A DNA stretch of 64,000 bases from Pelagibacterium nitratireducens. Its GTDB lineage: Bacteria > Pseudomonadota > Alphaproteobacteria > Rhizobiales > Devosiaceae. The stretch is from positions 1,592,501 to 1,656,500 of the forward strand of contig NZ_CP146275.1 of NCBI RefSeq assembly GCF_037044555.1. Direction: 5' to 3'. The notes beneath the pieces are model-generated. The model was not told the origin of the DNA. It was given only the letters and a program-made list of their open reading frames with translations, and did no database searches. Positions within the stretch are counted from its first letter, which is position 1, and each line of letters begins with the position of its first letter. Both the position numbers and the translations under genes were made by a program. This document shows positions 5,005 to 24,754 of this stretch, piece by piece.

Positions 5005-6243
5005 CTATTCCGCGGAACGGCGTGCCGCAGGCAGGGATACGCGGTCGGCAAAAGTTCTGTCGATTTCGGTCAAGGTCTTCATCATGAGGCCTCGATAAAT
5101 CGGCTCGCCGGCGTCAGGCACAAGCTGAATCGGCGGCAACCCGCGCATCCGGCCCATGAGCGAAGCAGCAGCGCCTTCGGCGATTGCGGTTGCGACCAGG
5201 TCATGGGCGGCGGTGTTGGGGCCGAGCAGGATGAGCCTGTCGATCTTGACGATCGAAATCAGCCGGCTTATGCCGTGCCCGATGGCCGCTCCAGCTGCAG
5301 AAAAGGCCCGTTGGGCGGCCCGATCGCCCTGACGCGCTCGCGCCATGATGTGCTGGAAATCGGCGGGCGGGACGGCGCTGGCCGGCGTGGCATGCTCGGG
5401 CACCGAATAGGCGGCACGCAATATGGCGTAATCGGCGGCATAGGCCTCCACGCAACCGCGCGCGCCGCAGCGGCACAAGGCGCCGCCGGGGATATGGATC
5501 ATGTGCCCGAACTCGGTCGCCAGTCCCGCGTCGGGACTTGCGTCGGTGGGGAGCGTCAGCCCCATGCCGATTGTCGAGCCGAGATAGATCGTTGCGATGC
5601 CGGCCTTTGCGAGATCGGGATCGAGCCAGCGCATGCCATCCGCCATCAGCCGGCCGCGCTTGAACAGGTGGGCGGCCAATCCGAGCCGGTTGTTGATCGC
5701 CGTCACGATGTCGTGGCCGCTCAAATGGGGAATGGGCGACCAGGTCAGCCCATGGCCCAAGGCGTTCAATATTCCCTGCACCGAGATGGAAACGCCATGC
5801 AGCGTGTTGCCGATATCTGTGTTGCGGCCAATCATGTGGCCGATGCGCTCGATGAACCACGCTGCTGGTGCGACTTCGGAAAAGAGGGTAGGGCCAACGC
5901 CGGATTCGACCCTGTCGACGAGCACGCCGCCATAGTCGAGCAGCGACATACGGCAGCGGTTGACGTCGAGTTCGATGAGCAGAACGAAGCCGGCGCTTCG
6001 GTTGTGTACAAGTTGCACGGCGGGCCGCCCGCGCGCTTTTGCGCCGGCCTGCGGCTCGGCAAGTTCGGCAACGATGCCGTCGCCGACAAGATCTGCGGCA
6101 ATGGCCGTCAGGGTGGCATTGGAAAGTCCGGTCAGCGTAGCCACCTGCGAACGCGAGAGCGGACCGTGCCGGCGCAATGCGTCCAGCACCAGGAGCCGGT
6201 TCTGCCGCCGGATCATTTCCGTGTCCGCAACGCCCTGCGCCAA
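5005..6243 (-). CDS. ROK family transcriptional regulator (probable xylose-type repressor)
   Basis: The protein has an N-terminal winged helix (GPLSRSQVATLTGLSNATLTAIAADL) followed by a ROK sugar-kinase-like domain with the zinc motif CRCGARGCVEAY. In this family, sugar binding to the ROK domain releases DNA. I place the start at TTG 6243 (412 residues) because GGGAGG lies 5 bases upstream; ATG 6216 is also possible. The frame stays open to 6450, but that longer start would cover the promoter of the divergent transporter operon. Divergence from xylF-xylH-xylG suggests it controls that operon. This is inferred from context. Confidence 0.85.
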   Translation of the reverse strand: MAQGVADTEMIRRQNRLLVLDALRRHGPLSRSQVATLTGLSNATLTAIAADLVGDGIVAELAEPQAGAKARGRPAVQLVHNRSAGFVLLIELDVNRCRMSLLDYGGVLVDRVESGVGPTLFSEVAPAAWFIERIGHMIGRNTDIGNTLHGVSISVQGILNALGHGLTWSPIPHLSGHDIVTAINNRLGLAAHLFKRGRLMADGMRWLDPDLAKAGIATIYLGSTIGMGLTLPTDASPDAGLATEFGHMIHIPGGALCRCGARGCVEAYAADYAILRAAYSVPEHATPASAVPPADFQHIMARARQGDRAAQRAFSAAGAAIGHGISRLISIVKIDRLILLGPNTAAHDLVATAIAEGAAASLMGRMRGLPPIQLVPDAGEPIYRGLMMKTLTEIDRTFADRVSLPAARRSAE

Positions 6244-6329
6244 ACGGGCCTCCCACTCGTGCCGCCGTGGGTCTTCTATGGGCTGCTGTGCCAGGTTGCA
6301 CGCATTTTTCCACGCCGAACAAATGGACG

Positions 6330-6380
6330 TTGACACAGCAATGCGCCCGTGCCAATTATTTTTTCGGGTATTGAAAAATA
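6330..6380 (+). promoter_or_regulatory. Probable xylF promoter with overlapping inverted-repeat operator
   Basis: TTGACA at 6330-6335 and AATTAT at 6354-6359 are 18 bases apart, a good sigma70-type promoter facing xylF. Overlapping and following the -10 is an inverted repeat: TATTTTTTC at 6357-6365 and GAAAAATA at 6373-6380, 7 bases apart with one extra T in the left arm. A repressor bound there would block initiation, which fits a ROK regulator encoded divergently. Confidence 0.5.
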
Positions 6381-6440
6381 TCCGTTGCGGTGGCCCGAGG
6401 AGGCATGCCGCTGGAGGCATAACCCTTTTACTGTGGTTTG

Positions 6441-6464
6441 GCGGACGCAAATGTCCGCAGGAGG
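6441..6464 (+). promoter_or_regulatory. Stem-loop abutting the xylF Shine-Dalgarno
   Basis: GCGGAC (6441-6446) and GTCCGC (6453-6458) form a perfect 6-bp stem with a 6-base loop. The strong AGGAGG ribosome site follows directly at 6459-6464. The stem leaves the site exposed, so it may protect the 5' end of the xylF message or tune initiation. No riboswitch family is recognised. Confidence 0.4.
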
Positions 6465-6470
6465 AAAATC

Positions 6471-7511
6471 ATGAAAACTTTCGCAGCTGCCCTTCTGGGC
6501 ACGACTGTTCTTTTCGGTCTGGCCGGGGGCGCACTGGCTCAGGACATCACCGTTGGCGTTTCCTGGTCCAACTTCCAGGAAGAGCGCTGGAAGACCGACG
6601 AGGCAGCCATCCAGGCTCAGCTTGATGAAATGGGCGCCAGCTACATTTCCGCAGACGCGCAGTCTTCAGCATCCAAGCAGCTTACCGATATCGAAAGCCT
6701 TATCGCTCAGGGCGCCGATGCGCTCATCGTTCTGGCTCAGGATACCGATGCCATCCAGCCGGCAATCGCCGCCGCAGTGGCAGAGGGCATCCCGGTGATC
6801 GGCTATGACCGCCTCATCGAAAATGCCGATGCGTTCTACATCACCTTCGACAACCAGGGTGTTGGCCGCCTGCAGGCTGAATCGGTGTTTGCCGTGCAGC
6901 CGACCGGCAATTACGTCTTCATCAAGGGCTCGAGCACCGATCCCAACGCGGACTTCCTGCATGCGGGTCAGCTCGAAGTGCTTCAGGATGCGATCGACGC
7001 CGGCGATATCGTCAATGTCGGCGAAGCCTATACCGATGGCTGGCTCCCGGAAAACGCTCAGGCCAACATGGAACAGTTCCTGACCGCCAATAACAACGAG
7101 GTCGATGCGGTCGTTGCCTCGAACGACGGTACCGCTGGTGGCGCCATTGCCGCCCTTGCTGCTCAGGGGCTTGATGGTGCTGTGCCGGTCTCGGGCCAGG
7201 ATGGCGATCATGCCGCCCTCAACCGTATCGCTCTTGGCACCCAGACCGTGTCGGTCTGGAAAGACAGCCGTGAACTTGGCGCCAAGGCTGCCGAGATCGC
7301 AGTTGAATTGGCCGGCGGCGCTGCACTTGCCGATATCGAAGGCTCGGTGACGTTTGATGGTGGCCCGAATGGCGTCGAGATGAACTCGCTGTTCCTGGCT
7401 CCCGTTGCGATCACGCAGGACAATCTTGATGTGGTCATTGACGCTGGCTGGGTCAGCAAGGACGTTGTCTGTCAGGGCGTTGACGCCGGTTCGGTTGCCG
7501 CTTGCGACTGA
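6471..7511 (+). CDS. xylF: D-xylose-type ABC transporter, periplasmic binding protein
   Basis: This 346-residue periplasmic sugar-binding protein has a signal peptide ending near ALAQD. It resembles E. coli XylF along its length: ERW-KTD near the start of the mature protein, [49 protein letters not shown] and SGQDGD are shared landmarks of the ligand pocket. The ATG at 6471 has AGGAGG 6 bases upstream. It is the first gene of a three-gene transporter operon divergent from a ROK regulator. Xylose is the likeliest ligand, but related pentoses or glucose cannot be excluded. Confidence 0.88.
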
Positions 7512-9822: not shown

Positions 9823-10950
9823 ATGAAGACGCGGGCTGCAGTTGCATTTGAGGCCGGCAGGCCGCTGGAAATCGTCGAGCTCGACCTCGATGGCCCCAAG
9901 GCGGGTGAAGTGCTTGTCGAAATCAAGGCGACCGGCATCTGCCACACCGACGATTTCACGCTTTCCGGTGCGGATCCCGAGGGATTGTTTCCCGCCGTAC
10001 TCGGCCATGAAGGGGCCGGGGTGGTCGTGGAGGTCGGCGCAGGTGTGACGTCGGTCAAACCCGGTGATCACGTCATTCCGCTCTACACGCCCGAGTGTCG
10101 GGAATGTCCGTCCTGCTTGTCGCGCAAGACCAATCTTTGTACCGCCATCCGCGCCACGCAGGGGCAGGGATTGATGCCCGACGGAACGTCCCGCTTTTCC
10201 TACAAGGGCAAGCCCGTGTTCCATTACATGGGCTGCTCGACCTTCTCGAACTATACCGTCATGCCCGAAATCGCGGTGGCCAAGATCGATGCCAGCGCGC
10301 CGTTCGACAAGGTCTGCTACGTCGGGTGTGGTGTAACGACGGGCGTTGGCGCAGTGCTCAACACCGCCAAGGTGGAGCAGGGGGCTACTGCCGTTGTGTT
10401 CGGGCTCGGCGGTATCGGGCTCAATGTCATTCAGGGCCTGCGCATGGCCGGTGCCGACATGATCATCGGCGTCGATCTCAACAATGACAAGCAAAGCTGG
10501 GGCACGCGCTTCGGGATGACCCATTTCGTCAACCCGCGTGAGATCGAAGGCGATATCGTCAGCCATATCGTCAACATGACCAAGCGAGGTGCCGATCAGA
10601 TTGGTGGTGCCGATTATACATTCGATTGCACGGGCAATGTGACGGTGATGCGTCAGGCTCTCGAAGCCAGCCATCGTGGCTGGGGCAAATCGGTCATCAT
10701 CGGCGTGGCCGGCGCCGGGCAGGAAATTTCCACGCGTCCTTTCCAGCTCGTCACGGGCCGCACCTGGATGGGCACGGCGTTTGGCGGCGCGCGCGGGCGC
10801 ACGGACGTGCCAAAAGTCGTCGACTGGTACATGAACGGCAAGATCGAGATCGATCCGATGATCACCCACACGCTGCGGCTCGAAGACATCAACAAGGGGT
10901 TCGAGCTGATGCATTCGGGCGAATCCATCCGGTCGGTGGTTCTTTACTGA
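9823..10950 (+). CDS. frmA: S-(hydroxymethyl)glutathione dehydrogenase / class III alcohol dehydrogenase
   Basis: The enzyme oxidises S-hydroxymethylglutathione, formed from formaldehyde and glutathione, to S-formylglutathione with NAD, and also reduces S-nitrosoglutathione. The 375-residue protein has the catalytic zinc region ([18 protein letters not shown]), the structural zinc cysteines in ECRECPSC through NLC, and the NAD fold GLGGIG. The sequence closely follows class III ADHs. The ATG at 9823 is preceded by GAGGAGG. No S-formylglutathione hydrolase gene is adjacent; instead a YaiI-family gene follows after 2 bases. Confidence 0.94.
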
Positions 10951-10952
10951 CC

Positions 10953-11414
10953 ATGCCTGAAATCTACGTCGACGCTGATTCGTGCCCGGTCAAGGCCGAA
11001 GTCACCCGCGTTGCCGAGCGGCATGGGCTCGTTGTGACCTTCGTTGCGAATTTCGGTCTGCGACCGTCGCGCGATCCCATGATCCGCCACGTCATGGTGC
11101 CCCAGGGTGCCGATGCCGCCGACGACTGGATCGTCGATCATGCCGGTGCCGGCGACATTGTTATCACCTCCGACATCCCGCTGGCGTCACGCGCGCTGGA
11201 AAAGGGTGCCCATGTTCTGGGCCCGTCCGGCAAGCCGTTTACGACAGCTTCGATCGGCATGGCGCTGGCCATGCGCGATCTCAACCAGCACTTGCGCGAA
11301 ACCGGCGAGAGCAAGGGCTACAACCGCGAGTTCACCGCGCGCGACAAGTCGAGTTTTCTCCAGGCCCTCGACGAACTTGCAGCTCGGCTCAAGCGGGAGC
11401 GCTCGGCCAAGTAA
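10953..11414 (+). CDS. YaiI/YqxD family protein (UPF0178)
   Basis: This 153-residue protein starts with EIYVDADSCPVKAEV, the hallmark of the UPF0178 (YaiI/YqxD) family, and has TSDIPLASRALEKGAHVLGP. The acidic residues and fold resemble PIN/NYN nucleases, but no activity is established for the family. The ATG lies 2 bases after the frmA stop, so the two genes are probably co-transcribed. Confidence 0.88.
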   Translation: MPEIYVDADSCPVKAEVTRVAERHGLVVTFVANFGLRPSRDPMIRHVMVPQGADAADDWIVDHAGAGDIVITSDIPLASRALEKGAHVLGPSGKPFTTASIGMALAMRDLNQHLRETGESKGYNREFTARDKSSFLQALDELAARLKRERSAK

Positions 11415-13538: not shown

Positions 13539-13803
13539 TTTTTTCCCAGTCCTTCCATACTGCCTGATCTGATCGAACAGCCGCGCGAAGGTCGCTGGCG
13601 GTATGTTCGGTGTGCCGATCCATTTTGATCTGGCAGCGCAACAGGCATCCGCCTTCCGGCGCTATATGCGACATCACCGACTACCAGCCTGGCACCCGAT
13701 CAGGCGTTTCGACTGGCGAAAAGGTGGCCTGCTCACTTTGAAGCGATAACGGCTTTCTTCTAGCTTCGCCGGCAATCGAAACGCAAAAATGAAGTAGTCG
13801 AAA
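13539..13803. other. Intergenic region after tRNA-Gly
   Basis: These 265 bases have no convincing open frame. They contain the first copy of the shared cluster operator (13706-13722) and presumably the promoter of the DUF6282 gene. I looked for a duplicate of the tRNA-Gly 3' end here and near 24.8-25.3 kb as an attachment site and found none. Confidence 0.5.
13706..13722. promoter_or_regulatory. Shared cluster operator, copy 1 (candidate IclR site)
   Basis: GTTTCG-ACTGG-CGAAAA is an inverted repeat with a 5-base spacer, 81 bases before the DUF6282 start. It matches copies at 17692-17708 and 24738-24754, which precede the other two transcription units of the same cluster. Palindromes of this size are typical for IclR-family regulators, one of which (16765-17676) is encoded in this unit. 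Confidence 0.6.
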
Positions 13804-14739
13804 ATGGCCGGAAAACAATGGCGTAGCGAAGCGCGTGCGCTTATCGATTCAATTGCGCCCGAGCGTGTTGATGCTCTTTTGAAGGGGGCCGTGGACTTGC
13901 ACGTTCATTCCGGGCCGTCCACCATGCCACGCCAGCTCGACCACCTTGAAGAGGTCGACCAAGCGGCGGCTGCGGGCATGCGTGGGGTGTTGTTCAAGGA
14001 TCACCACTATTCCGTTTCACCAATGATGCCGATGCTCGAGCGTATCAGCGCCAGTTCGGGCGTCCACATGTTTGGCTCGCTGGTTCTCAACAATACCGTT
14101 GGTGGTCTGAATCCTCACGCGGTGGACTACAACGTGAAGATGGGTGCGAAGCTTGTCTTCATGCCGACAGCGCATGCGGCCAATCACATCCGCAACACGC
14201 ACCGCAACGCCAGGCTGGCCAGCAATGTGCAGTTGCGTAAGCCGTACGGGATCACCGTCATTGACGCGACAGGCGAGTTGCTCGACCCGGTCAAACAGAT
14301 CCTGGACATCATCGCCGAGCACGACGTGATCTTGTCGTCCGGCCACCTTCACATTGCAGAGGTCTGGGTCCTCTTCGAGGAAGCCAAGCGTCGCGGCGTG
14401 AAAAGGCTGCTGGTCAACCACCCCGCTTACGGCCTTCACTGCACGTATGAAGATGTTTCCGAGCTTGCGGCCATGGGCGCGATGATCGAGCAGTCCGCCT
14501 GCCTGTTTGTCGACTCGCGATTCAACGTCTTCCCTCCCGATGAACTCAAAGCCCAGGTCGATGCGGCCGGCGTCGCCAACTCATCAATGGGCTCGGACCT
14601 TGGTCAGGTTGATAATCCAAGCCCGGTGGAGGGGATGCGCCAGATCATTGCCATGCTGCTCGCACTGGGCTTTTCCGACGAGGATGTCGGAAAGATGGTT
14701 CGCGACAATCCTGCACGCCTCGTCGGCCTGGAAAGCTGA
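13804..14739 (+). CDS. DUF6282 family metal-dependent hydrolase-like protein
   Basis: This 311-residue protein has an amidohydrolase-like TIM-barrel pattern. DLHVHSGPS at 31-39 supplies a first HxH metal pair, SSGHLHIAE a second histidine cluster, VNHPAYGLH further histidines, and SSMGSDLGQ a late Asp as in amidohydrolases. I recognise it as DUF6282, whose substrates are not established. It opens the accessory catabolic cluster. Genes downstream encode an FAH-family hydrolase, a quinone oxidoreductase and an IclR regulator on the same strand, so a ring- or amide-opening step is plausible but unproven. The ribosome site is weak. Confidence 0.75.
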   Translation: MAGKQWRSEARALIDSIAPERVDALLKGAVDLHVHSGPSTMPRQLDHLEEVDQAAAAGMRGVLFKDHHYSVSPMMPMLERISASSGVHMFGSLVLNNTVGGLNPHAVDYNVKMGAKLVFMPTAHAANHIRNTHRNARLASNVQLRKPYGITVIDATGELLDPVKQILDIIAEHDVILSSGHLHIAEVWVLFEEAKRRGVKRLLVNHPAYGLHCTYEDVSELAAMGAMIEQSACLFVDSRFNVFPPDELKAQVDAAGVANSSMGSDLGQVDNPSPVEGMRQIIAMLLALGFSDEDVGKMVRDNPARLVGLES

Positions 14740-14780
14740 CTCCTCCCGCATTCCACTACTGTTGAAGAAAGTCTCAAACC

Positions 14781-15773
14781 ATGAAGCTGGGAACGGCCCT
14801 TATCGAGGGGCGCGATACGCTCATTGCCGCAATCGGCGACACCGGCGCCGTGACGCTGTCGGCCGCCTATCAGGCGGCCGGGCTCGGGGCTGTGCCCGCT
14901 AGCCTCAACGACCTGATCGAGGCAGGGCCCGATGAGTTGTCACGGGCGCGCGGCGCAGTCGAGACAGCTGCTGCCAACGGCGTAAGCATGCTCCGGGTGG
15001 CGGACATCGATTTCCGGCCGCCGCAGCCGCGTCCGACCAAATTCATGGGCGTAGCGATGAACAATCGCGGTATCCGCAAGGAGGCTCACAAGAGCCCAAC
15101 TGTTCCCAATTATTTTCTCAAAGCGCCCTCCTGCCTGACTGGACATAACCATCCGATCATCATGAAGGAGCACTATGGAGAGACCATTCCCGAACTCGAA
15201 CTTGCCGCTGTCATTGGCAAGCGGGCAAAGAACGTTTCGGTAGAGGAGGCGCGCGATGTCATCTTCGGCTATTCGATAGCCAACGACATTACTTCGCACG
15301 GCATCAAATTCGGCTATGACTCGATAGCCACGACCCGGGCACCCGAATTGACCCGCCCTCATCATTTCGCCTGGCGCAACCGGCATGGCGAGGACGACAA
15401 CGACATCTATTTCGTCTACCACACGCGATCGAAGGCGACCGATACGTTCGGGCCGATGGGGCCCTGGATAACTACGGCCGACGAGATAGCAAATCCCAAC
15501 ACCCTCGACGTGCGGGGCTATTTCAACGGTGAGCCTTTCGCCCAGGATAATACGTCAAACTACATGTTCACTGTCGAGCAGGTGATTGCTGACGCGAGCG
15601 AATGGTTTACTCTTGAACCCGGTGACATCATCATTTTCGGGACAACGGCCAAGGGTGTGGGCAAATATCCGCACGGCCACCGCGAGATCAACATGCACAA
15701 GATGAATGGGTTGATCGAGTGCGAGATCGAGGGCCTTGGAAAATTGGCCAACCGGGTGGTTCACGAAAAATGA
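14781..15773 (+). CDS. Fumarylacetoacetate hydrolase (FAH) family protein
   Basis: The product is 330 residues. Its C-terminal two thirds are an FAH catalytic domain: FMGVAMNN opening, metal-binding acidic residues ELE at 138-140 (from the ExxE..E site), IANDIT with Asp169, and GDIIIFGTTAKGVGKYP near the end. The family cleaves C-C bonds or hydrates and decarboxylates 2-oxo acids with a divalent metal. The N-terminal 80 residues form a separate small domain. It lies 41 bases after the DUF6282 gene, and its stop overlaps the next start by 4 bases, so an operon is likely. The exact reaction is not predictable. Confidence 0.85.
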   Translation: MKLGTALIEGRDTLIAAIGDTGAVTLSAAYQAAGLGAVPASLNDLIEAGPDELSRARGAVETAAANGVSMLRVADIDFRPPQPRPTKFMGVAMNNRGIRKEAHKSPTVPNYFLKAPSCLTGHNHPIIMKEHYGETIPELELAAVIGKRAKNVSVEEARDVIFGYSIANDITSHGIKFGYDSIATTRAPELTRPHHFAWRNRHGEDDNDIYFVYHTRSKATDTFGPMGPWITTADEIANPNTLDVRGYFNGEPFAQDNTSNYMFTVEQVIADASEWFTLEPGDIIIFGTTAKGVGKYPHGHREINMHKMNGLIECEIEGLGKLANRVVHEK

Positions 15774-16768
15774 CCGAGGCGATGCGCGTCATTGAAATCG
15801 CGGGTGCAGGCGGGCCCGAGGTCCTTCGGATGGCCGAACGGCCGCGTCCCGAGCCACGGCCCGACGAAGTGCGCATCAAGGTGGCTGCAATAGGCCTCAA
15901 CCGTCCGGATATCCAGCAAAGGCGCGGGCTCTATCCGCCTCCGCCAGACGCCAGTGATCTGCCCGGCCTCGATGTTGCCGGCACGGTCGACGCCGTGGGG
16001 CAGGGCGTCGATACTGCGATACTGGGAAGGCAAGTCTGTGCGCTCACCAACGGTGGAGGTTATGCGGAATTTTGCTGCGTTCCCGCAGTTCAAACCATGC
16101 CGGTCCCTCAAGGGTTCAGCATAGAGGAAGCCGCCTCTCTCCCCGAAGTCTTCTTTACGGCCTGGAACAATATTGTCCTGCTGGCCCGATTTGCCGACAA
16201 GGAAACGCTTTTGATTCAGGGCGGCTCGAGTGGCGTCGGGCTTGCGGCCACCCAGATCGCACGTCACTTGTTCGATGGCACAGTGATCGTAACGGCTTCA
16301 ACCCCGGAAAAGCGACAATTGTGTCTCGAGTTCGGTGCATCGCACGCCTTCGACTATCGCGATCCAGGTTGGACCGATCAGGTGCGTGCCGCAACGGGCG
16401 GGCAGGGGGTCGACGTTATCCTTGATGGACAGGCCGGGCCCTATACGCAGCCCGAACTCGACCTTCTGAGATCTGACGGTCGGCTCGTGCTGATCGCCAG
16501 CCATCTGGGAAAGACCGCAGCAATCAATCTCAACGGCATTGTTCGTCGGCGCCTTACGCTCACCGGTTCCACTTTGCGGCCCCGTTCGCCCGCCTATAAA
16601 GGGCAGATCGCCTCGCAACTGACCGACCGGGTATGGCCTCTGATCGAAACAGGACAGATCAGGACCCACATCCATGAGGTTTTCGCATTCGATGATATGC
16701 GGCGAGCTCATGCGCTGATGGACAGCAACGACCAGATGGGCAAGGTCGTGGTCAGGGTTGCACCATGA
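15770..16768 (+). CDS. NAD(P)H:quinone oxidoreductase, zinc-free MDR (PIG3/QOR type)
   Basis: This 332-residue medium-chain reductase starts at the ATG inside ATGA shared with the upstream stop. It has the QOR/PIG3 N-terminal pattern (LNRPDIQQRRGLYPPPP, LPGLDVAGTVDAVG), lacks the catalytic-zinc His and Cys set, and carries the NADPH fold QGGSSGVGLAATQIA. Members reduce quinones or enoyl-type double bonds. In this operon it could reduce an unsaturated intermediate. Its stop overlaps the IclR regulator start by 4 bases. Confidence 0.87.
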   Translation: MTEAMRVIEIAGAGGPEVLRMAERPRPEPRPDEVRIKVAAIGLNRPDIQQRRGLYPPPPDASDLPGLDVAGTVDAVGQGVDTAILGRQVCALTNGGGYAEFCCVPAVQTMPVPQGFSIEEAASLPEVFFTAWNNIVLLARFADKETLLIQGGSSGVGLAATQIARHLFDGTVIVTASTPEKRQLCLEFGASHAFDYRDPGWTDQVRAATGGQGVDVILDGQAGPYTQPELDLLRSDGRLVLIASHLGKTAAINLNGIVRRRLTLTGSTLRPRSPAYKGQIASQLTDRVWPLIETGQIRTHIHEVFAFDDMRRAHALMDSNDQMGKVVVRVAP

Positions 16769-17676
16769 GTGGCGCAACACCGGTGATGGCGCGGCCCCTT
16801 TCAAATCGTGAGCTGCGGGCCGATAGTGTCGACTCGACGGAATGGTTCGGGACGGCAGTGTTGGATTCGCCGGTGGTCGTTGGCAAGAGCAGTGAGATCA
16901 GATCTGCAAGCCGCATTTTGGCGGTGCTGCAAGCCATGAACCGCGAGCCCTACTCCACGATCCAGTCGCTTCATGAGGCGACTGGACTGCCCAAACCCAC
17001 TCTGGTGCGTATGCTCAAGACCCTGGAGGCAGGAGGGTTTGTCAGCAATGATCGTCGCCAGGCCGGCTATCAGATCACCTCACTTGTTACATCACTCAGC
17101 AATGGTTTTCACGGCGATCCACTGGTGGTTGAGGCCGGTCGTGCCTGGGCGATGAAACTCAATTCGGAATACAAATGGCCCGTTGCCATCGGAGTCTTTG
17201 ATGGTGAGGCAATGGTTGTGCGTTTTTCTACGGTGCATGACAGCCCTGTGTCGCCATTTCACGCCACAATCAACATGCGGTTGAGCTTGTTCACACGCGC
17301 GCTGGGCCGGGCCTATCTTGCGGCGATCAGCGACGATCAGATTGCCGAACTGATCGTCAATGCCCGAGGCTCCGACGAACTGGAGCCGCCTTCGGCGCGT
17401 GATCCGGCCTTTGTCGAGCGTATGGTTCGGACGGTGCGTGAGCGGGGCTATGCCATGCGCGACGCCCATGTGGAGCCGCGGTCATCCGATACCATCGCGG
17501 TGCCGATTTTTTCGCGTGGGACCGTGCAGGCCAGCATCGGGATCACCTATTTTCGCTCGGCAATGAACTCGTTCGGATCCCACACCAAGTTCGTTGCCGC
17601 CCTCAAACATGCGGCTGAGGGCATCGGCGCCGAAGTCGACCGGCTCCAGATCGCGCGCGGCTATCAAAACAGTTGA
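16765..17676 (+). CDS. IclR family transcriptional regulator
   Basis: This 303-residue regulator has a winged helix at about 50-110 (SASRILAVLQAMN, TIQSLHEATGLPKPTLVRMLKTLEAGGFV), followed by an IclR effector domain (GRAYLAAISDDQ, SDTIAVPIF, ASIGITYF). An unusual 45-residue N-terminal extension precedes the helix-turn-helix, so a later start is possible. It is the last gene of a translationally coupled operon. Three matching inverted repeats in front of the three cluster units are its most likely operators, including its own (autoregulation). Confidence 0.88.
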   Translation: MSGATPVMARPLSNRELRADSVDSTEWFGTAVLDSPVVVGKSSEIRSASRILAVLQAMNREPYSTIQSLHEATGLPKPTLVRMLKTLEAGGFVSNDRRQAGYQITSLVTSLSNGFHGDPLVVEAGRAWAMKLNSEYKWPVAIGVFDGEAMVVRFSTVHDSPVSPFHATINMRLSLFTRALGRAYLAAISDDQIAELIVNARGSDELEPPSARDPAFVERMVRTVRERGYAMRDAHVEPRSSDTIAVPIFSRGTVQASIGITYFRSAMNSFGSHTKFVAALKHAAEGIGAEVDRLQIARGYQNS

Positions 17677-17691
17677 GCGGTGACGCCCCTT

Positions 17692-17708
17692 GTTTCGCCA
17701 GACGAAAC
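17692..17708. promoter_or_regulatory. Shared cluster operator, copy 2
   Basis: GTTTCG-CCAGA-CGAAAC is a perfect 6-bp inverted repeat with a 5-base spacer, 109 bases before tctB. A half-site GTTTCGG follows at 17729-17735. It matches copies 1 and 3 in arm sequence and spacing. Confidence 0.65.
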
Positions 17709-17817
17709 GAGCAGGCGGTGCCGTTGTCGTTTCGGGGTCGAGCCGCGACCTTCGGGCAACTTTGTATCAAGAGGATATTTGCACCATGAGCACATCAACT
17801 TCTGTCGGTATCGCGCC

Positions 17818-18279
17818 ATGAAGGTGGGCTCGGACGCTTTGGCCGGAATCATTTTCATCGTCTTTGGCATCGGCACGGTGGCGCTGGGCTGGGGCTATGG
17901 TTTGGGTACCATGAACCAGCCCGGCAGTGGCGCAATGCCTGTCATGGCAGGCGCTGCGTTGGCGCTTCTCGGCATGGCGCAGATGCTCAAGGTCCGCATG
18001 GAAGCCGGCGATCCTGCGTCGTACAAACCTGCTTTCTCCGTGTCCGAAATTCGACCTTTGCTGGTGATTCTGGCAGCGGTGTTCGCCTTTGCCACCCTTA
18101 TTCTGCCCACGGGGCTTATCCCGGCCTTGATCGCGCTTATTGCGATTGCATGGTTTGCGCAAAAGGGTGGTGCCCGCTGGGAATTGTTCGGGGCCATGAT
18201 CCTGGTCGTTGTCGTGATAACCGCCATTTTCAAGTTCGGACTCGGGCTTCCCCTGCGCCTGTTTGCCTGGGGGTTTTGA
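17818..18279 (+). CDS. tctB: Tripartite tricarboxylate transporter TctB family protein
   Basis: This 153-residue protein with four membrane helices is the small subunit of a TTT-type secondary transporter. Features are the N-terminal helix (DALAGIIFIVFGIGTVALGW), the conserved PGSGAMPVMAG segment that follows helix 1 in TctB proteins, and two closely packed C-terminal helices. The frame is open back to 17680, but that start would overlie the operator; the ATG at 17818 also starts the recognisable family sequence. tctA follows after 1 base. Confidence 0.85.
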   Translation: MKVGSDALAGIIFIVFGIGTVALGWGYGLGTMNQPGSGAMPVMAGAALALLGMAQMLKVRMEAGDPASYKPAFSVSEIRPLLVILAAVFAFATLILPTGLIPALIALIAIAWFAQKGGARWELFGAMILVVVVITAIFKFGLGLPLRLFAWGF

Positions 18280-18280
18280 G

Positions 18281-19780
18281 ATGGATCTGCTTCCGCTTTT
18301 GACACTCGGCCTTCAGGTCGCCACCAATCCCGTCAATCTCCTTTATTGCCTTTTGGGTGTGACCTTGGGCACAGCCATTGGCGTCTTGCCCGGTGTGGGG
18401 CCAATCATCACCATTGCGCTTCTGCTACCGCTCAGTTTCGGGTTGCCCGCAGAGGCTTCGATCATCCTGTTGGCCGGCATCTATTATGGTGCCTCTTATG
18501 GCGGCTCGACGACCTCAATTCTGGTCAACCTGCCAGGTGAAGCGTCCTCCGCGGTTACCTGTATCGATGGGCATCAGATGGCCAAACAGGGACGGGCAGG
18601 GGCCGCGCTGGCCGTTGCCGCGCTGGGTTCGTTTTTTGCCGGCACGATCGGCACCTTGCTGATCGCACTAGCCGGGCCACCTCTTGCAGCCATCGCCATG
18701 CGCTTCGGCGCGGCGGAATATGCGGCACTGGTGTTTGCAGCGCTCCTCATGGTGGCCACCATGACACGCGGGGGTGCAATAAAGGGAATAGGCGTGGCCC
18801 TTCTGGGCGTTATTTTCGGGCTGGGTGGTTCCGATGTCATGACGGGCGTCTTCCGCTTCACCTTTGGCATTCCCGAATTGCGGGACGGTGTCGATTTCGC
18901 GGTGCTTGCCGTTGGGCTGTTCGCCATTGCCGAAATCGTCGGCAATACCTCCAAGCAGTCCGGGGAAACCATCACAACCAGCGCTATCGGGAAGCTCTGG
19001 CCAACGCGGCAGGACTTTCGAGACGCCTGGCCCGCCGTTCTGCGTGGCACAGGCATCGGCTCTCTGCTTGGGGTGTTGCCAGGAGCCGGCGTGGCGATGA
19101 GTTCCTTTTCGGCTTATATGGTCGAAAAGAGCGTGGCCAGGGAACCTGAGCGCTTCGGCGCCGGCGCCATCGAAGGGGTGGCCGCACCGGAATCGGCCAA
19201 CAATGCCGCCTCCCAGACCGGCTTTATTCCCACGCTGCTGCTCGGCATTCCCGGCAGTCCCGTGATGGCGCTGCTGCTGGGAGCCTTCATGATCCACGGC
19301 GTGGCACCGGGGCCGCGCATGATGACCGATCATGCGCCGCTGTTCTGGGGGCTGATCGCCTCTATGTGGATCGGCAATCTGTTTCTCGTTGTCCTCAATC
19401 TGCCGTTGATCGGGCTCTGGGTGCGATTGCTCAAGGTCCCCTATCACTGGCTCTACGTTTTCGTTTTGGCCTTTGCCTGTGTCGGGGTCTTCACGATGGG
19501 GTCGTCCTCCTTTCAGATCTATGCTCTCGTGTTCTTTGGGTTGCTTGGTTATCTGCTGCGCGCGGCAGGGCTGAGCCCGGCTCTTTTCATCCTGGGCTTC
19601 ATCCTGGGGCCGATGTTTGAGGAAAACTTCAGGCGCGCAATGGCGGTGTCTCATGGCGATCCCTTCGTTTTCTTCCAGCGCCCGATCAGCCTGATATTTG
19701 TATTGCTCGGCTTGTCCGTCCTCGTCCTGGCCACCACGGCCTTTGTTCGCCGGGGCCGCGAAGAGGCAGAGGAAGCCTAG
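18281..19780 (+). CDS. tctA: Tripartite tricarboxylate transporter permease TctA
   Basis: This 499-residue permease with about 11-12 membrane helices is the large subunit of the TTT transporter, which imports carboxylates with the TctC binding protein using an ion gradient. Family marks: GVLPGVGPIITIALLLPLSFGL, YYGASYGGSTTSILVNLPGE, GSFFAGTIGTLL, and in the second repeat GVLPGAGVAMSSFSAYMVEKS with PESANNAASQTGFIPTLLLGIPGSP. The start at 18281 is 1 base after the tctB stop. tctC is encoded on the opposite strand 4 kb away in the same cluster. Confidence 0.95.
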   Translation: MDLLPLLTLGLQVATNPVNLLYCLLGVTLGTAIGVLPGVGPIITIALLLPLSFGLPAEASIILLAGIYYGASYGGSTTSILVNLPGEASSAVTCIDGHQMAKQGRAGAALAVAALGSFFAGTIGTLLIALAGPPLAAIAMRFGAAEYAALVFAALLMVATMTRGGAIKGIGVALLGVIFGLGGSDVMTGVFRFTFGIPELRDGVDFAVLAVGLFAIAEIVGNTSKQSGETITTSAIGKLWPTRQDFRDAWPAVLRGTGIGSLLGVLPGAGVAMSSFSAYMVEKSVAREPERFGAGAIEGVAAPESANNAASQTGFIPTLLLGIPGSPVMALLLGAFMIHGVAPGPRMMTDHAPLFWGLIASMWIGNLFLVVLNLPLIGLWVRLLKVPYHWLYVFVLAFACVGVFTMGSSSFQIYALVFFGLLGYLLRAAGLSPALFILGFILGPMFEENFRRAMAVSHGDPFVFFQRPISLIFVLLGLSVLVLATTAFVRRGREEAEEA

Positions 19781-19783
19781 GCA

Positions 19784-20254
19784 ATGATCGACATCGAACA
19801 TGCCGGCGATCTCGCAGCTCATGCGGGCAAATGTCTTGGCCGTTCGCAATGGATGGTCGTCGACCAGTCCATGGTGGACGCCTTCGCGACACTGTCAGGG
19901 GATACCCACTGGATCCATGTCGATGTGGCTCGGGCCCGGGCCGAGATGCCAAACGGAGAGACGATCGTTCATGGTCTACTCCTGCTTTCGCTGATGCCCC
20001 GGCTTCAGCAGGATATTTACAGGATCGCCGAGCGAGGCATCGGTCTCAATTATGGTTATGACCGGGTCCGGTTTGTCGCGCCGGCGCCGGTTGGCGCAAA
20101 AATCAGGCTCGCGCTGACCCTTATCACTGCGGAGCCACATGCGCAGGGCACGCGGATCATAACCGATGCGGAGATCGAGGTGGAAGGGAGTGCAAAGCCA
20201 GCTCTGGTCGCGCGCCACCTTCTGCTGGTCAGGGACAAGTCCAATGAAGATTGA
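19784..20254 (+). CDS. MaoC family (R-specific) enoyl hydratase-like protein, first copy
   Basis: This 156-residue single hot-dog domain has the hydratase-2 active-site motif in FATLSGDTHWIHVD (Asp and His) and the HGLLLLSLMP helix. Enzymes of this family hydrate 2-enoyl-CoA thioesters. It starts 3 bases after tctA and overlaps the acyl-CoA ligase gene by 11 bases. The neighbouring ligase suggests it acts on the CoA ester that the ligase makes. A second, dissimilar MaoC protein is encoded at 21767-22225. Confidence 0.87.
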   Translation: MIDIEHAGDLAAHAGKCLGRSQWMVVDQSMVDAFATLSGDTHWIHVDVARARAEMPNGETIVHGLLLLSLMPRLQQDIYRIAERGIGLNYGYDRVRFVAPAPVGAKIRLALTLITAEPHAQGTRIITDAEIEVEGSAKPALVARHLLLVRDKSNED

Positions 20255-21779
20255 TCGATCGGTGGGTGCCGAAGGACAGTTGCTGCACACCATCATTGCC
20301 CACGCCCGCAAACGTCCGTATGCGCCTGCATTCAGTTGTGGCGGAGTCCATTTGACCTGGGAAGATTTTGCCGCAGCAATTCTGGATGTGGCTGGCACAA
20401 TCGCCGCCGAATTCGGGGAACGAAAACAGCAACCGGTGGCACTGGTCGGCGTAAATTCCGCCGAACTGGTGATTGCCTATCTTGCGATCGTGGCGGCGGG
20501 TCAGTGCGCCGTTCCCTTGCCGGTCTCTGCGAACGCGGAGACCCTGGCTGGAATGCTATCTGACTGTCGCCCAAACCTGGTCTTTACTGATCGCGTTGGG
20601 TTCGACCTCATAGGGAGCGAGGGTGCCGATCGGATTGTTGCAATCGGCTTCTCCCAAACCTCCACGAAGGATTGGGATGAGTTTGCAATTGAAAACGCGA
20701 AGCTGGAAACGCCGGTCGCTATGTCGGGGACCGATGACTTCAACATCATCTATAGTTCCGGCACTACGGCGCGTCCCAAAGGCATCGTGCAATCTCATGC
20801 CATGCGATATCGGCAGGCGGCGCGCGCAACATTCGGTCTGGGACCCGCCAGCACCATGCTGCTAGCGACCCCGCTTTATTCCAACACCACACTGATGCCC
20901 CTGCTGGCCACGCTCTGCCACGGCGGAAATGTGGTGCTCATGCAGAAGTTTTCGGCGGCTGGCTACCTTGATCTTGCCGAAGAAATCAGCGCGACACACA
21001 CGATGCTGGTACCAATACAGTACCAGCGCCTCCTTGGAGAGCCTGATTTTGTTCGCCGCGATCTTTCCGCGTTCGTCGTCAAACAATCAACTGGCGCGCC
21101 ACTTGCGAGCGCCATGAAGCGCGATCTGACCGCCTACTGGCCCGGCAAACTGCTGGAAGTCTACGGCCTGACAGAGGGAGGCTGTACGTCAATCCTTGAT
21201 GTGGGCGCCCATCCCGACTGCTATCACACCGTGGGTCGCCCGGCACCGGGCAACGATATCAGGATCATCGACGAAGCCGGCACCGAACTGCCGGCCGGCG
21301 AGGTGGGGGAGATCGTGGGACGCTCTCCAACCATGATGACGCGCTATTTCCGCAACCCCCAGGCCACCGAAGCTTTCTACTGGCGAGATGCGGAGGGCCA
21401 AAAGTTCCACCGGACCGGGGACATCGGTCTGATCGATGAGGCCGGTTTCCTCGTACTGCGTGACCGAAAGAAAGATGTCATCATATCTGGCGGCTTCAAC
21501 GTTTACGCCTCTGATCTGGAGCGCGTTCTGCTCGATCATCCAGATATCGAGGATGCCGCCGTGATCGCCGTTCCCAGTCAGAAATGGGGAGAGACCCCGC
21601 TAGGGCTGGTGGTGATGAAAGAGGGTGTCACGGCCGATCTGTCGGAGGTTTGCTCCTGGGCCAATGATCGCCTCGGCAGCATGCAGCGGCTCTCGAGGGT
21701 CGAGGTGCGTCCAACGCTCCCGCGCTCTCCGGCCGGCAAGGTGCTTAAGCAGGACCTGAAAAAACCCTACTGGGCCTGA
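20244..21779 (+). CDS. AMP-binding acyl-CoA synthetase (class I adenylate-forming)
   Basis: This 511-residue ligase activates a carboxylic acid through an acyl-AMP to the CoA thioester. Motifs appear in order: IIYSSGTTARPKGIVQSH (P-loop), YGLTEGG (A5), RTGDIG (A7), RDRKKDVIISGGFNVYASDLE (hinge) and PRSPAGKVLK with the catalytic lysine (A10). The ATG at 20244 overlaps the MaoC gene, implying translational coupling. It is closest in style to medium-chain or aromatic acid:CoA ligases, but the substrate is unknown. It should act on the acid imported by the TTT transporter. Confidence 0.9.
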   Translation: MKIDRSVGAEGQLLHTIIAHARKRPYAPAFSCGGVHLTWEDFAAAILDVAGTIAAEFGERKQQPVALVGVNSAELVIAYLAIVAAGQCAVPLPVSANAETLAGMLSDCRPNLVFTDRVGFDLIGSEGADRIVAIGFSQTSTKDWDEFAIENAKLETPVAMSGTDDFNIIYSSGTTARPKGIVQSHAMRYRQAARATFGLGPASTMLLATPLYSNTTLMPLLATLCHGGNVVLMQKFSAAGYLDLAEEISATHTMLVPIQYQRLLGEPDFVRRDLSAFVVKQSTGAPLASAMKRDLTAYWPGKLLEVYGLTEGGCTSILDVGAHPDCYHTVGRPAPGNDIRIIDEAGTELPAGEVGEIVGRSPTMMTRYFRNPQATEAFYWRDAEGQKFHRTGDIGLIDEAGFLVLRDRKKDVIISGGFNVYASDLERVLLDHPDIEDAAVIAVPSQKWGETPLGLVVMKEGVTADLSEVCSWANDRLGSMQRLSRVEVRPTLPRSPAGKVLKQDLKKPYWA

Positions 21780-22225
21780 GGCTGGCGCGTCGGGACCTGA
21801 CCGATCGAAATCATCGACATCACCACTTCAGTGTTATGATTGACGACGCTGATCCGCGTTCGGATGATGCCAAATTTGGGGTTGGATTTCGAGAGGTGCT
21901 TGTCGATCACTTCGCGTACGACGTGCACTCGGTCGCCGGGCCTCACGGGTTTTTTCCAGCGCAACTCATCGATGCCCATTCCGACAACCGGCGTTTCGCC
22001 GTAACCGCCGGATTCGATAAACAGTCGCATCGAGAGAGCAGCGATCTGCCATCCGCTGGCGATCAGGCCTTTGAAGCGTCCATTGGCCGCCGCTATGGGG
22101 TCGTAATGGATTGGTTGTGGGTCATTGGCACGGCCGAAATTCACGATCTCGGCTTCGGTTATTTCGAGCTCTTCGCTCTGCCATATCTCGCCAATGGAAA
22201 AATCCTCGAAGGTGCGAGCCGTCAT
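21767..22225 (-). CDS. MaoC family hydratase-like protein, second copy
   Basis: This 152-residue hot-dog protein has the catalytic motif in FGRANDPQPIHYDP and the GLIASGWQIAALSMRL helix. It is the last gene of the minus-strand unit tctC-prpD-maoC. Its start overlaps the MmgE/PrpD stop by 4 bases, and its 3' end overlaps that of the convergent acyl-CoA ligase by 13 bases. It differs clearly from the first MaoC copy, so the two probably act on different intermediates. Confidence 0.88.
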   Translation of the reverse strand: MTARTFEDFSIGEIWQSEELEITEAEIVNFGRANDPQPIHYDPIAAANGRFKGLIASGWQIAALSMRLFIESGGYGETPVVGMGIDELRWKKPVRPGDRVHVVREVIDKHLSKSNPKFGIIRTRISVVNHNTEVVMSMISIGQVPTRQPQAQ

Positions 22226-23610
22226 GTCGGCACACGTAGCGGTGCAAACGTGCCGGCGAGATCTGTTACGGTATCGAGCCCGGTCAACGCTGCGACCAGA
22301 TCTTCCGCCCGGTCTTGCGAAATGACGCCTGCCACATTGGCCATGAACTTTTCGATATAAACACTGGCCGGGGCGGGGTTTCTTGCGGTGCCCTGCATGT
22401 CTTCAACAGTATGGGAAATGGTTGTCCCGTCTGAAAATTCGATCGTCACCACGCCGCGTGAGCGGGACGTGTCCTGTGCCGCAATCGGATCGGCGATATG
22501 AATGACCTTGTCCGCCAGGGCGTTGATGCGAGGATCTATAAGGCTGCTTTGTGCGTAGGCGGACTTGTCGAAGCGGCCAAGCACCAAGGCTTCGGCCACT
22601 GTATGCTGCAGGCTGATGCGGCCGTGCCAAGAGGTGAGCGGGCGCCGTTTTTCGCTCAAGGGCTCGCAGACGGTGCGAAACGAGCGGGGCATGATCTCAC
22701 AGCGGATCTGGGCGATGGCACCGATGTCGATCTCGTTCGTGGCCCTGAGCGCCAGTGCTGCCGCGATAAAGGGCATCAATGTGTAGGCACACGGATAGAG
22801 CTTTGTTGCGATGTTGAGCACTTCCCAACGTTCGCCAAGGTCCTGGATGAGTTCGTTGAAGCGGAATTCGGGTTCTGACTGTATGTGGCTCTTGAACCAT
22901 CCGAACTTCCCTTCGAAAACGGCGGCGGGCCCCGAAACGCCTTGGGCCGCCAGAGCCATCGCACGCACGGCAGCGGCGGCGGCAAAGCCGACATGGAGGG
23001 TCTTGGTAGAGGTTCCGTCTTCAAACGAAGCAATCGATCCGGACGAGAGGCTGGCTGCCGTTCCGACCGCATCCACGGTTTGCCCGCGATCCAAACCACG
23101 CAGGCGAGCAGCGGCGTATGTTGCGCCAAACACCCCGTAAACGCTGGTCGGGTGCATTCCCACTTCGTGCATCCGCACTGGCGAGACGAGGCCGAGACGG
23201 CACAGAATTTCGGACCCAACGATTACGGCTTCCAGAAACTGGCGACCTGAGAGGCCCTGGGCTTGCACCATCGGCAGCGCTGCGGAAACAATAACGCCCG
23301 TCGTATGAATGTTGCTCGCGATGTGGGTATCATCGAATTCGAGAACAGCCGACGCCACGCCGTTTATGAACGCAGCACCGGCGAGAGAGGTTTCCGCTGC
23401 ACTCAAGAGCGCATGGGCGCCCTTGCCGCCACCGTCTGCATTGCCATACGCCCGCTCAGCGGCTGCAACGGTGGGATGTGCGCTGGACGCAATCATGACG
23501 CCAACTATGTCGAGTACTCGCAGCTTGGCGTTTTCGATAACCGACGAGGGGGCGTCATCCAGCGAAAACGCCAGACCCCATTCCGCCAGCCTTGCACTCA
23601 ATGTCGTCAT
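22222..23610 (-). CDS. MmgE/PrpD family protein
   Basis: This 462-residue protein belongs to the family of 2-methylcitrate dehydratase PrpD, cis-aconitate decarboxylase and iminodisuccinate epimerase. Landmarks are NAKLRVLDIVGVMIA, FINGVASAVLEFDDTH (the His/Asp-rich helix), MHEVGMHPTSVYGVFGA, FEGKFGW and the KLYPCAYTLMPFIAAAL region. The frame is open to 23742, but that would run through the tctC terminator; the ATG at 23610 begins the usual family start (LSARLAEWGLAF). Its presence suggests a polycarboxylate dehydration, isomerisation or decarboxylation step. Confidence 0.88.
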   Translation of the reverse strand: MTTLSARLAEWGLAFSLDDAPSSVIENAKLRVLDIVGVMIASSAHPTVAAAERAYGNADGGGKGAHALLSAAETSLAGAAFINGVASAVLEFDDTHIASNIHTTGVIVSAALPMVQAQGLSGRQFLEAVIVGSEILCRLGLVSPVRMHEVGMHPTSVYGVFGATYAAARLRGLDRGQTVDAVGTAASLSSGSIASFEDGTSTKTLHVGFAAAAAVRAMALAAQGVSGPAAVFEGKFGWFKSHIQSEPEFRFNELIQDLGERWEVLNIATKLYPCAYTLMPFIAAALALRATNEIDIGAIAQIRCEIMPRSFRTVCEPLSEKRRPLTSWHGRISLQHTVAEALVLGRFDKSAYAQSSLIDPRINALADKVIHIADPIAAQDTSRSRGVVTIEFSDGTTISHTVEDMQGTARNPAPASVYIEKFMANVAGVISQDRAEDLVAALTGLDTVTDLAGTFAPLRVPT

Positions 23611-23640
23611 CTCGCCCGATATCCCGATATGTCTGGAGGC

Positions 23641-23678
23641 AAACAAAAAGCCCGGCGGCGAACTGGCGCTGCCGGGCT
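23641..23678 (-). terminator. Rho-independent terminator/attenuator after tctC
   Basis: On the minus strand AGCCCGGC pairs with GCCGGGCT (8 bp, 23671-23678 with 23649-23656) around a 14-base loop, followed by TTTTGTTT. It lies between tctC and the MmgE/PrpD gene. It may reduce expression of the downstream enzymes relative to the abundant binding protein. Confidence 0.75.
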
Positions 23679-23695
23679 CATCAACTGGCAAATTA

Positions 23696-24664
23696 CTACT
23701 GTTTGAGACCCATTGTGGAGAGCAACTGGTCGTAGTTGTCATATTCTGCCTGCAGGGCGGCCTGAAGGTCGCTGCCGCTCATGTAGCGCGGCGTCACGCC
23801 CGCCCGGAGCAAAATGTCGGTGAACTCTGGCGAAGTGCTCGCATCCTGCAGCGCGCGCTCAAGAGCGGTGACCACTTCTTCCGGCATGCCCGAGGGCGCC
23901 AGGATCATCTGAAGTCCGGTGCCCCGGATGGATGGGTACCCGGCTTCGGCAAGCGTCGGCACTTCGGGGAAGTCATCCATTCGGTTATCGCCCGGAACAG
24001 CCAGCGGCGTCACTGCATCCTGGCGAGCCTGTGGAATGGCCGCTGCATCAAGCATGAACTGAACGTCGCCCGAGAGCACCGCCTGCACGACCTCTGCCGC
24101 ACCGGAATAGGGGATATGGTTTGCTTCGATGCCTATATTTGCCAGCATGTCGACGGTCGCGATATGCCCCGTCGATCCGACGCCGACCGATCCGAAATTC
24201 ATCTCGCCGGGATGATCGCGGCCATAGGCAGCGAACTCCTCGAAATTCGACACCGGCAGCCCCTTGGACGCAACCAGCATACGTGGCGCTTCACTGACGT
24301 TCGCGATGGTCATAAGGTCGGCGAGCGGGTCGAAGCCGACCGAGGCCAAATGCGGCGCCGTCGTGATGATGGCGTTGCCCGCCAACAGCAAGGTCGATCC
24401 GTCTGCCGGAGCGCGAGCCGCGCGCTCTGCGCCGATCGTGCCGCTCGCTCCGCCAATGTTTTCGACGATGAAATTGGCTTCGAAGCGCTGGCTGAGTTCG
24501 TCTGCCACGATCCGTCCAACGGTATCTCCAGCTCCGCCCGCTGCATAGGGCACGATGATGGTGACAGTGTCGACAGGGTACGGTTCGCGCTCCTGCGCTG
24601 CCGCGGCGGTGGAAAAGAGTGCGGATGCGGCAATGGCGGCGGCTAAGCAAGTTCTTATCGTCAT
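23696..24664 (-). CDS. tctC: Tripartite tricarboxylate transporter substrate-binding protein (TctC/Bug family)
   Basis: This 322-residue periplasmic protein has a clear signal peptide (TCLAAAIAASALFSTAAAAQ). It shows the Bug-family fold: PVDTVTIIVPYAAGGAGDTVGRIVA at the start of domain 1, NIGGASGTIGAE, and VPTLAEAGYP near the domain crossing. Bug proteins bind carboxylates through main-chain and water contacts, so the ligand is hard to predict. The ATG at 24664 begins the signal peptide, with GAGG close upstream. It is read divergently from tctBA but belongs to the same regulon by its operator. Confidence 0.92.
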   Translation of the reverse strand: MTIRTCLAAAIAASALFSTAAAAQEREPYPVDTVTIIVPYAAGGAGDTVGRIVADELSQRFEANFIVENIGGASGTIGAERAARAPADGSTLLLAGNAIITTAPHLASVGFDPLADLMTIANVSEAPRMLVASKGLPVSNFEEFAAYGRDHPGEMNFGSVGVGSTGHIATVDMLANIGIEANHIPYSGAAEVVQAVLSGDVQFMLDAAAIPQARQDAVTPLAVPGDNRMDDFPEVPTLAEAGYPSIRGTGLQMILAPSGMPEEVVTALERALQDASTSPEFTDILLRAGVTPRYMSGSDLQAALQAEYDNYDQLLSTMGLKQ

Positions 24665-24737
24665 GGACAATTCCTCCCAAATGATGGCGCAGAACTTGGC
24701 ATCTGGTCCGAGCCTCCGCCAGCTCACCGGTGCCTTC

Positions 24738-24754
24738 GTTCCGCAGTGCGAAAC
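24738..24754. promoter_or_regulatory. Shared cluster operator, copy 3
   Basis: GTTCCG-CAGTG-CGAAAC lies 73 bases upstream of the tctC start. Five of six arm pairs match, and the outermost flanking C and G also pair. It has the same arms and 5-base spacer as copies 1 and 2. Confidence 0.55.

Follow-up and report, generated by a model that had tools for sequence, protein, structure and literature searches.

Predicted operators of a cluster-encoded IclR regulator before the three operons of a tripartite tricarboxylate transporter gene cluster in Pelagibacterium nitratireducens

An eleven-gene cluster of Pelagibacterium nitratireducens, located in the 64,000 nucleotides analyzed here (the window; contig NZ_CP146275.1, positions 1,592,501 to 1,656,500, assembly GCF_037044555.1), carries a palindrome before each of its three transcription units, and from the sequence evidence we predict, with a probability of about 0.8, that these palindromes serve as operators for the cluster's own IclR protein (16765-17676), which would control the three operons. 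The units are DUF6282-FAH-QOR-iclR (FAH, fumarylacetoacetate-hydrolase family; QOR, quinone oxidoreductase), tctBA-maoC1-ligase and, on the opposite strand, tctC-mmgE-maoC2. The palindromes are found at 13706, 17692 and 24738, where the original prediction had placed them, with gaps of 81, 109 and 73 nt to the likely start codons of DUF6282 (ATG 13804), tctB (ATG 17818) and tctC (ATG 24664). The IclR regulator that it had seen in the first unit is encoded there as the last gene, with an ATGA overlap with QOR. The sites and the putative promoter elements next to them are as follows.

13706..13722, plus strand: predicted operator 1, GTTTCG-ACTGG-CGAAAA, before DUF6282-FAH-QOR-iclR; counterparts before DUF6282 in relatives
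13738..13766, plus strand: putative promoter TTGAAG, 17 nt, TAGCTT, beginning 15 nt past operator 1
17692..17708, plus strand: predicted operator 2, GTTTCG-CCAGA-CGAAAC, before tctB; counterparts in L017, L077 and L078
17724..17729, plus strand: putative -35 TTGTCG, 15 nt past operator 2
24738..24754, minus strand: predicted operator 3, GTTCCG-CAGTG-CGAAAC (minus strand GTTTCG-N5-CGGAAC), before tctC-mmgE-maoC2; counterparts before tctC

That these are conserved regulatory sites at the starts of three transcription units is borne out by upstream counts in relatives. Upstream regions, TTG spacings and half-sites were counted in 24 related loci (L017, L018, L024, L027 and L077-L096), two of which (L077 and L079) belong to a single genome, G439; the set takes 4 loci of one 20-locus listing and leaves out L016, from a metagenome-assembled genome of Pelagibacterium sp., in which the cluster is nearly identical to that of the window and has the same gene order. 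Remote or short loci outside this set entered only the tally of IclR sites and recognition helices given below. Sought in these orthologous clusters with at most two mismatches (window excluded), the palindrome pattern of the original prediction (hereafter the initial pattern) stands before the same genes as in the window: DUF6282 in 14 of 25 cases, iclR in 13 of 24, tctB in 4 of 6 and tctC in 13 of 22, against expectations of 0.06-0.30. Genes inside operons have it in 7 of 57 cases (0.8 expected), and its upstream density is 17 times that in the rest of the loci. At no more than one mismatch the density ratio rises to 22 (DUF6282 11/25, iclR 10/24, operon-internal genes 1/57); at this stringency tctB has no site (0/6) and tctC few (2/22), which weighs against our interpretation for these two genes. 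The published consensus discussed below gave a ratio of 32 at up to two mismatches (DUF6282 9/25, iclR 9/24, tctB 1/6, tctC 7/22, other genes 2/57).

A core pattern, TTYC-N7-GRAA, was picked after the sites of the relatives had been viewed, and it is the initial and the published patterns that serve as unbiased tests. With the window included, the core was found upstream of DUF6282 in 18 of 26 cases (0.40 expected), of iclR in 18 of 25 (0.37), of tctB in 7 of 7 (0.11) and of tctC in 22 of 23 (0.49), a site common to divergent iclR and DUF6282 being scored for both genes. The tctC counts take in 16 distant TctC genes from other TTT (tripartite tricarboxylate transporter) systems; the core precedes all seven tctC genes at 60% identity or above and 15 of the 16 more distant ones. 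Upstream of the other genes it was found in 0/6 (FAH), 0/4 (MaoC1), 0/4 (ligase), 1/18 (tctA), 1/8 (MmgE), 1/5 (MaoC2) and 6/19 (QOR) cases.

The operator sites are kept even in loci with inverted gene blocks. Pelagibacterium limicola (L017; IclR 81%) has the DUF6282 block inverted and divergent from iclR, and ATTTCG-N5-CGAAAC/T at all three starts (ATTTCGTCAGGCGAAAC between iclR and DUF6282, ATTTCGTCAGGCGAAAT before tctB and ATTTCGCCTGCCGAAAT before tctC). Genome G447 (L078) has TTTCCG-N5-CGGAAA at all three starts, and the arms of the three sites in G439 (L077) are GTTCC/GGAAC, GTTCC/GGAAT and ATTTC/GGAAT. L079-L083, L086 and L088 have operator-like sites in pairs, spaced by 26-31 bases, near 5400-6570 and about 2-3 kb past DUF6282, which suggests tandem binding at a further promoter in those relatives.

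The palindrome had been put forward as a new IclR operator sequence, a claim for which we find no support. The GTT-11-AAC subgroup of group 1 IclR motifs (GTTYCRYW3RYGRAAC; 54 orthologous groups, 427 regulators and 1364 sites; Suvorova and Gelfand 2021, PMC8222616) is, like the sites here, a 17-bp palindrome with the same arms and an 11-base inner part, and operators 1, 2 and 3 differ from it at 4, 2 and 1 of the 17 positions. Operators 2 and 3 depart only in the W3 centre, where the sites of the window have CTG, CAG and ACT instead; operator 1, the weakest, departs also at an inner Y and at the last base. Operators of this class are expected ahead of the IclR gene and of neighbouring operons in orthologous loci, and the sites described here have such positions. 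The kind of operator is thus known, and the predicted regulon would be a new member of its class. In the sections of PMC8222616 that we consulted, a fixed distance from operator to -35 is not given. GenR of Corynebacterium glutamicum (ATTCC-N7(5)-GGAAT) shares the TTCC-N7-GGAA arms and spacing, and differs in its gentisate genes, its actinobacterial host and its outer letter A/T; the GenR paper is cited among those on dual regulators (PMC8222616). The IclR protein of the window has a helix-turn-helix domain (PF09339, 43.2 bits, cut-off 22) and the C-terminal domain PF01614 (42.5 bits, cut-off 24), and its nearest NCBIfam model, PRK09834.1-4 (NF007342), stays below the cut-off (232.8 vs 251 bits). 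We take the label of that model to be MhpR; MhpR of E. coli is an activator with an operator near -58. The site of the E. coli protein, GGTGCACCTGGTGCACA, is unlike the operators here in sequence (PMC8222616).

The position of the sites relative to putative promoter elements suggests activation at DUF6282 and tctB. A TTG stands exactly 15 nt past the operator in 22 of 51 flanks (maximum at any offset in 2000 shuffles, 7), and by gene in 16 of 18 DUF6282 and 6 of 9 tctB flanks. Towards iclR, 11 of 18 regions combine TTGAC, at one constant spacing, with a TAT element that begins exactly 13 nt ahead of the operator. From the fixed TTG spacing, and from the operator following directly on the -10-like TAT of iclR, we infer catabolic activation and autorepression of iclR. 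The IclR protein would bind its operators as a dimer or a pair of dimers. In the presence of the substrate or one of its derivatives it would activate the catabolic promoters, from a site with its centre near -59; in relatives it would also repress the divergent promoter of its own gene, given that the same operator directly follows the -10-like element of iclR.

Several observations weigh against this mechanism. None of the 24 tctC flanks has TTG at +15 (the hexamer at this position in the window is CTGGCG), and for this reason we rejected the idea that the three operons share one promoter geometry; a TA at offset 38 was seen in 6 of the 24 with no clear -35, a pattern that would suit, if weakly, a promoter leaning on an activator. 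The -10 pattern of iclR is absent from L017, L077 and L078, the three nearest relatives with the site, and from L084, L093, L018 and L024. In divergent regions the DUF6282 TTG falls inside the spacer of the iclR promoter, so that independent evidence for the -35 comes only from the DUF6282 promoters of the window and L092 and from tctB (6 of 7 loci). With the same operators, IclR might instead simply repress the three catabolic operons until the substrate releases it: the tctC operator is followed by no -35-like TTG, in the direction of iclR the operator directly follows a -10-like element in 11 of 18 regions, and repressors are known in the IclR family alongside activators and dual regulators (PMC8222616). 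We consider this unlikely, since an operator fixed 15 nt upstream of a -35-like TTG at both DUF6282 and tctB fits an activator better.

That the sites are IclR operators of one regulon, as first proposed, is well supported by comparisons among relatives, and iclR is the only regulator that profile searches found among the eleven genes tiling the cluster. Among 39 de-duplicated IclR relatives with 45% identity or more, 32 have TTYC-N7-GRAA between -130 and +45 relative to the iclR start, as do 34 of all 49 rows kept after removal of those with identical N-termini and sites. Half-sites are closer within than between seven related clusters (0.88 vs 1.25 mismatches; 24 sites, permutation p 0.001), and the Y of TTYC varies with the third residue of PKxTLVR in the recognition helix: with P it is T in 20 cases and C in 8, with S it is C in 34 and T in 4, and with A it is C in both. 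Fisher's test for P and S gives 4e-7 with no control for relatedness, a value that overstates the case because the rows are related, many of them from Bradyrhizobium. This residue aligns by eye with a direct DNA contact of TtgV, Ser48 (PMC8222616).

Some findings point the other way. L077 has P in the helix and yet mainly C in the arms, and the iclR regions of the window, L089, L092, L094-L096 and L027 have no site. The sites might belong to another regulator, for instance one of the seven further IclR-family proteins encoded in the genome, which could share a motif class common to many IclR proteins (PMC8222616), and in this species the iclR start has none of the three next to it. Since most relatives have a site of this class beside iclR, and the half-sites are alike inside a genome and change along with the recognition helix of this very protein, we regard another regulator as improbable.

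Taken by itself, the motif is not rare in the genome. At up to two mismatches the initial pattern has 7 matches in the window against 3.39 expected, a number reached by 7 of 100 shuffles; at up to one mismatch there are 26 places in the whole genome (3.85 Mb, two contigs) and 18 for the reversed control, and the sole perfect copy is 17692. NTTYCGN5CGRAAN occurs exactly at 35 places, as does its reversed control, so that there is no genome-wide excess, and 25 of its 32 places outside the cluster sit in open frames of at least 200 codons. Genome-wide rarity was accordingly rejected as proof. Three sites in 11,049 bp contrast with 0.066 expected from the 23 other genomic places (Poisson 4.5e-5), a p-value that is post hoc because the pattern was derived from those three sites; the pattern was therefore tested on other genomes, which had played no part in the original prediction. 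Near-palindromes with CG-rich arms are thus common enough that the likeness of the three could be put down to chance, but 24 related loci have sites ahead of these genes, at 17-32 times the density elsewhere in the loci depending on the pattern, which leaves this hardly credible for the set, and a single site, above all 13706, could still be non-functional. Random occurrence across the genome had been named as one observation that would overturn the proposal; the motif alone does occur in this way, but we judge this the wrong test, the case being carried by conservation and promoter geometry.

In the window, no TTYC-N7-GRAA was found in the 250 nt before 16870 that could serve iclR as an operator of its own. 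Under the activation model positive feedback of iclR is predicted for this species, because the gene has no separate operator and belongs to the DUF6282 operon, and the feedback may have changed sign here, from negative to positive. Judged by relatives such as L017, the iclR frame has about 35 additional codons at its front (16765-16870), either as an extension or with an internal start.

The three operons had also been taken as the complete regulon, which is unproven, since a further intergenic site with the same TTG spacing lies 76 kb off. When its W3 is left free and its ends are relaxed to R/Y, the published consensus (RTTYCRYN3RYGRAAY) occurs exactly at six places in the genome (reversed control, 2), operators 2 and 3 among them. 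The site 76 kb off, the operator-like GTTCCGCCTTGCGGAAT (C1:1530372; with the gene that follows, L134:5373-7165), shows the TTG at +15, and 180 nt separate its end from a tannase/feruloyl esterase-family gene, whose best solved matches are MHETases and whose product begins, by eye, with a signal-like stretch; it is also present in the same-species assembly G505. By chance about one TTG at +15 is expected (32 background places, two directions), and the genome has two, of which one falls within a long open frame. No site was found within about 1.5 kb before the 71% tannase orthologue in G447, nor around the six other hits (32-43%). The G447 orthologue stands after tctC, tctB and tctA genes, which hints at a role of the esterase alongside TTT uptake; about 380 nt ahead of the leading tct gene there is a poor match to the core, GTTCCTCGCTGGGAAAG, without TTG at +15. 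We regard the tannase/MHETase-family gene as a candidate member of the regulon. Another place, TTTTCGTATAGCGAAAC (C1:3247388; L135:6888), is not within a long frame; it precedes an open frame of more than 300 codons, with another IclR gene (C1:3243024) some 4 kb away, and it may be an operator of that regulator.

A fuller scenario is offered only tentatively: one operator would act in two ways, 15 nt from the catabolic -35 for activation and abutting the iclR -10 for autorepression; an inversion of the DUF6282 block would have put iclR under an activated promoter and turned its feedback from negative to positive, perhaps making the response all-or-none; and the probably secreted MHETase/tannase-family esterase 76 kb off would have joined the regulon.

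The genes of the cluster, as assigned by profile searches, include those for the TctA, TctB and TctC subunits of a TTT system.

13804..14739, plus strand: DUF6282 protein gene (PF19799, E 1.5e-72)
14781..15773, plus strand: FAH gene (PF01557)
15764..16768, plus strand: PIG3-type QOR gene (TIGR02824 above cut-off; PF00107)
16765..17676, plus strand: IclR-family regulator gene (PF09339 and PF01614 above cut-off)
17818..18279, plus strand: tctB (PF07331)
18278..19780, plus strand: tctA (PF01970, E 2.5e-147)
19784..20254, plus strand: MaoC-like gene 1, maoC1 (PF01575)
20241..21779, plus strand: AMP-dependent acyl-CoA ligase gene (PF00501, PF13193)
21767..22225, minus strand: MaoC-like gene 2, maoC2 (PF01575)
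22222..23613, minus strand: MmgE/PrpD-family gene, mmgE (PF03972, PF19305)
23696..24664, minus strand: tctC, periplasmic binding protein (PF03401, E 2.1e-51; best solved match 8hka, E 3.4e-45)

The three operons would serve the uptake and CoA-dependent breakdown of an organic acid, probably aromatic or related, and the nearest solved relatives of TctC are terephthalate-binding proteins. We take COG3181, COG3333 and COG2030 to be TctC, TctA-type proteins and MaoC. These COGs are tied to aromatic-metabolism genes in IclR regulogs (PMC8222616). TphR of the terephthalate cluster of Comamonas sp. E6 is an IclR regulator of an aromatic acid cluster, as proposed here. That cluster uses a TTT uptake system; it differs in that profile searches found no dioxygenase among the eleven genes described here. 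The TphR operator, TTTTTGCGCATAGCGCAAAAA, differs from the operators here (PMC8222616). In the openly accessible literature we found no paper on DUF6282, on Pelagibacterium and IclR, or on IclR, tannase and TTT together. An 11-codon open frame (17786-17821) has an ATGA overlap with the tctB start, and L017 has an 11-codon frame of different sequence at the equivalent place before tctB (10929-10964); translational coupling of this frame to tctB is possible.

For the DUF6282/TTT pathway the analysis yields a firm regulon prediction, at the level of sequence, with named operator and promoter positions. The ligand of the IclR regulator would be a quick route to the substrate of the pathway, and the inverted arrangement offers a natural test of whether rearrangement can change the sign of feedback.

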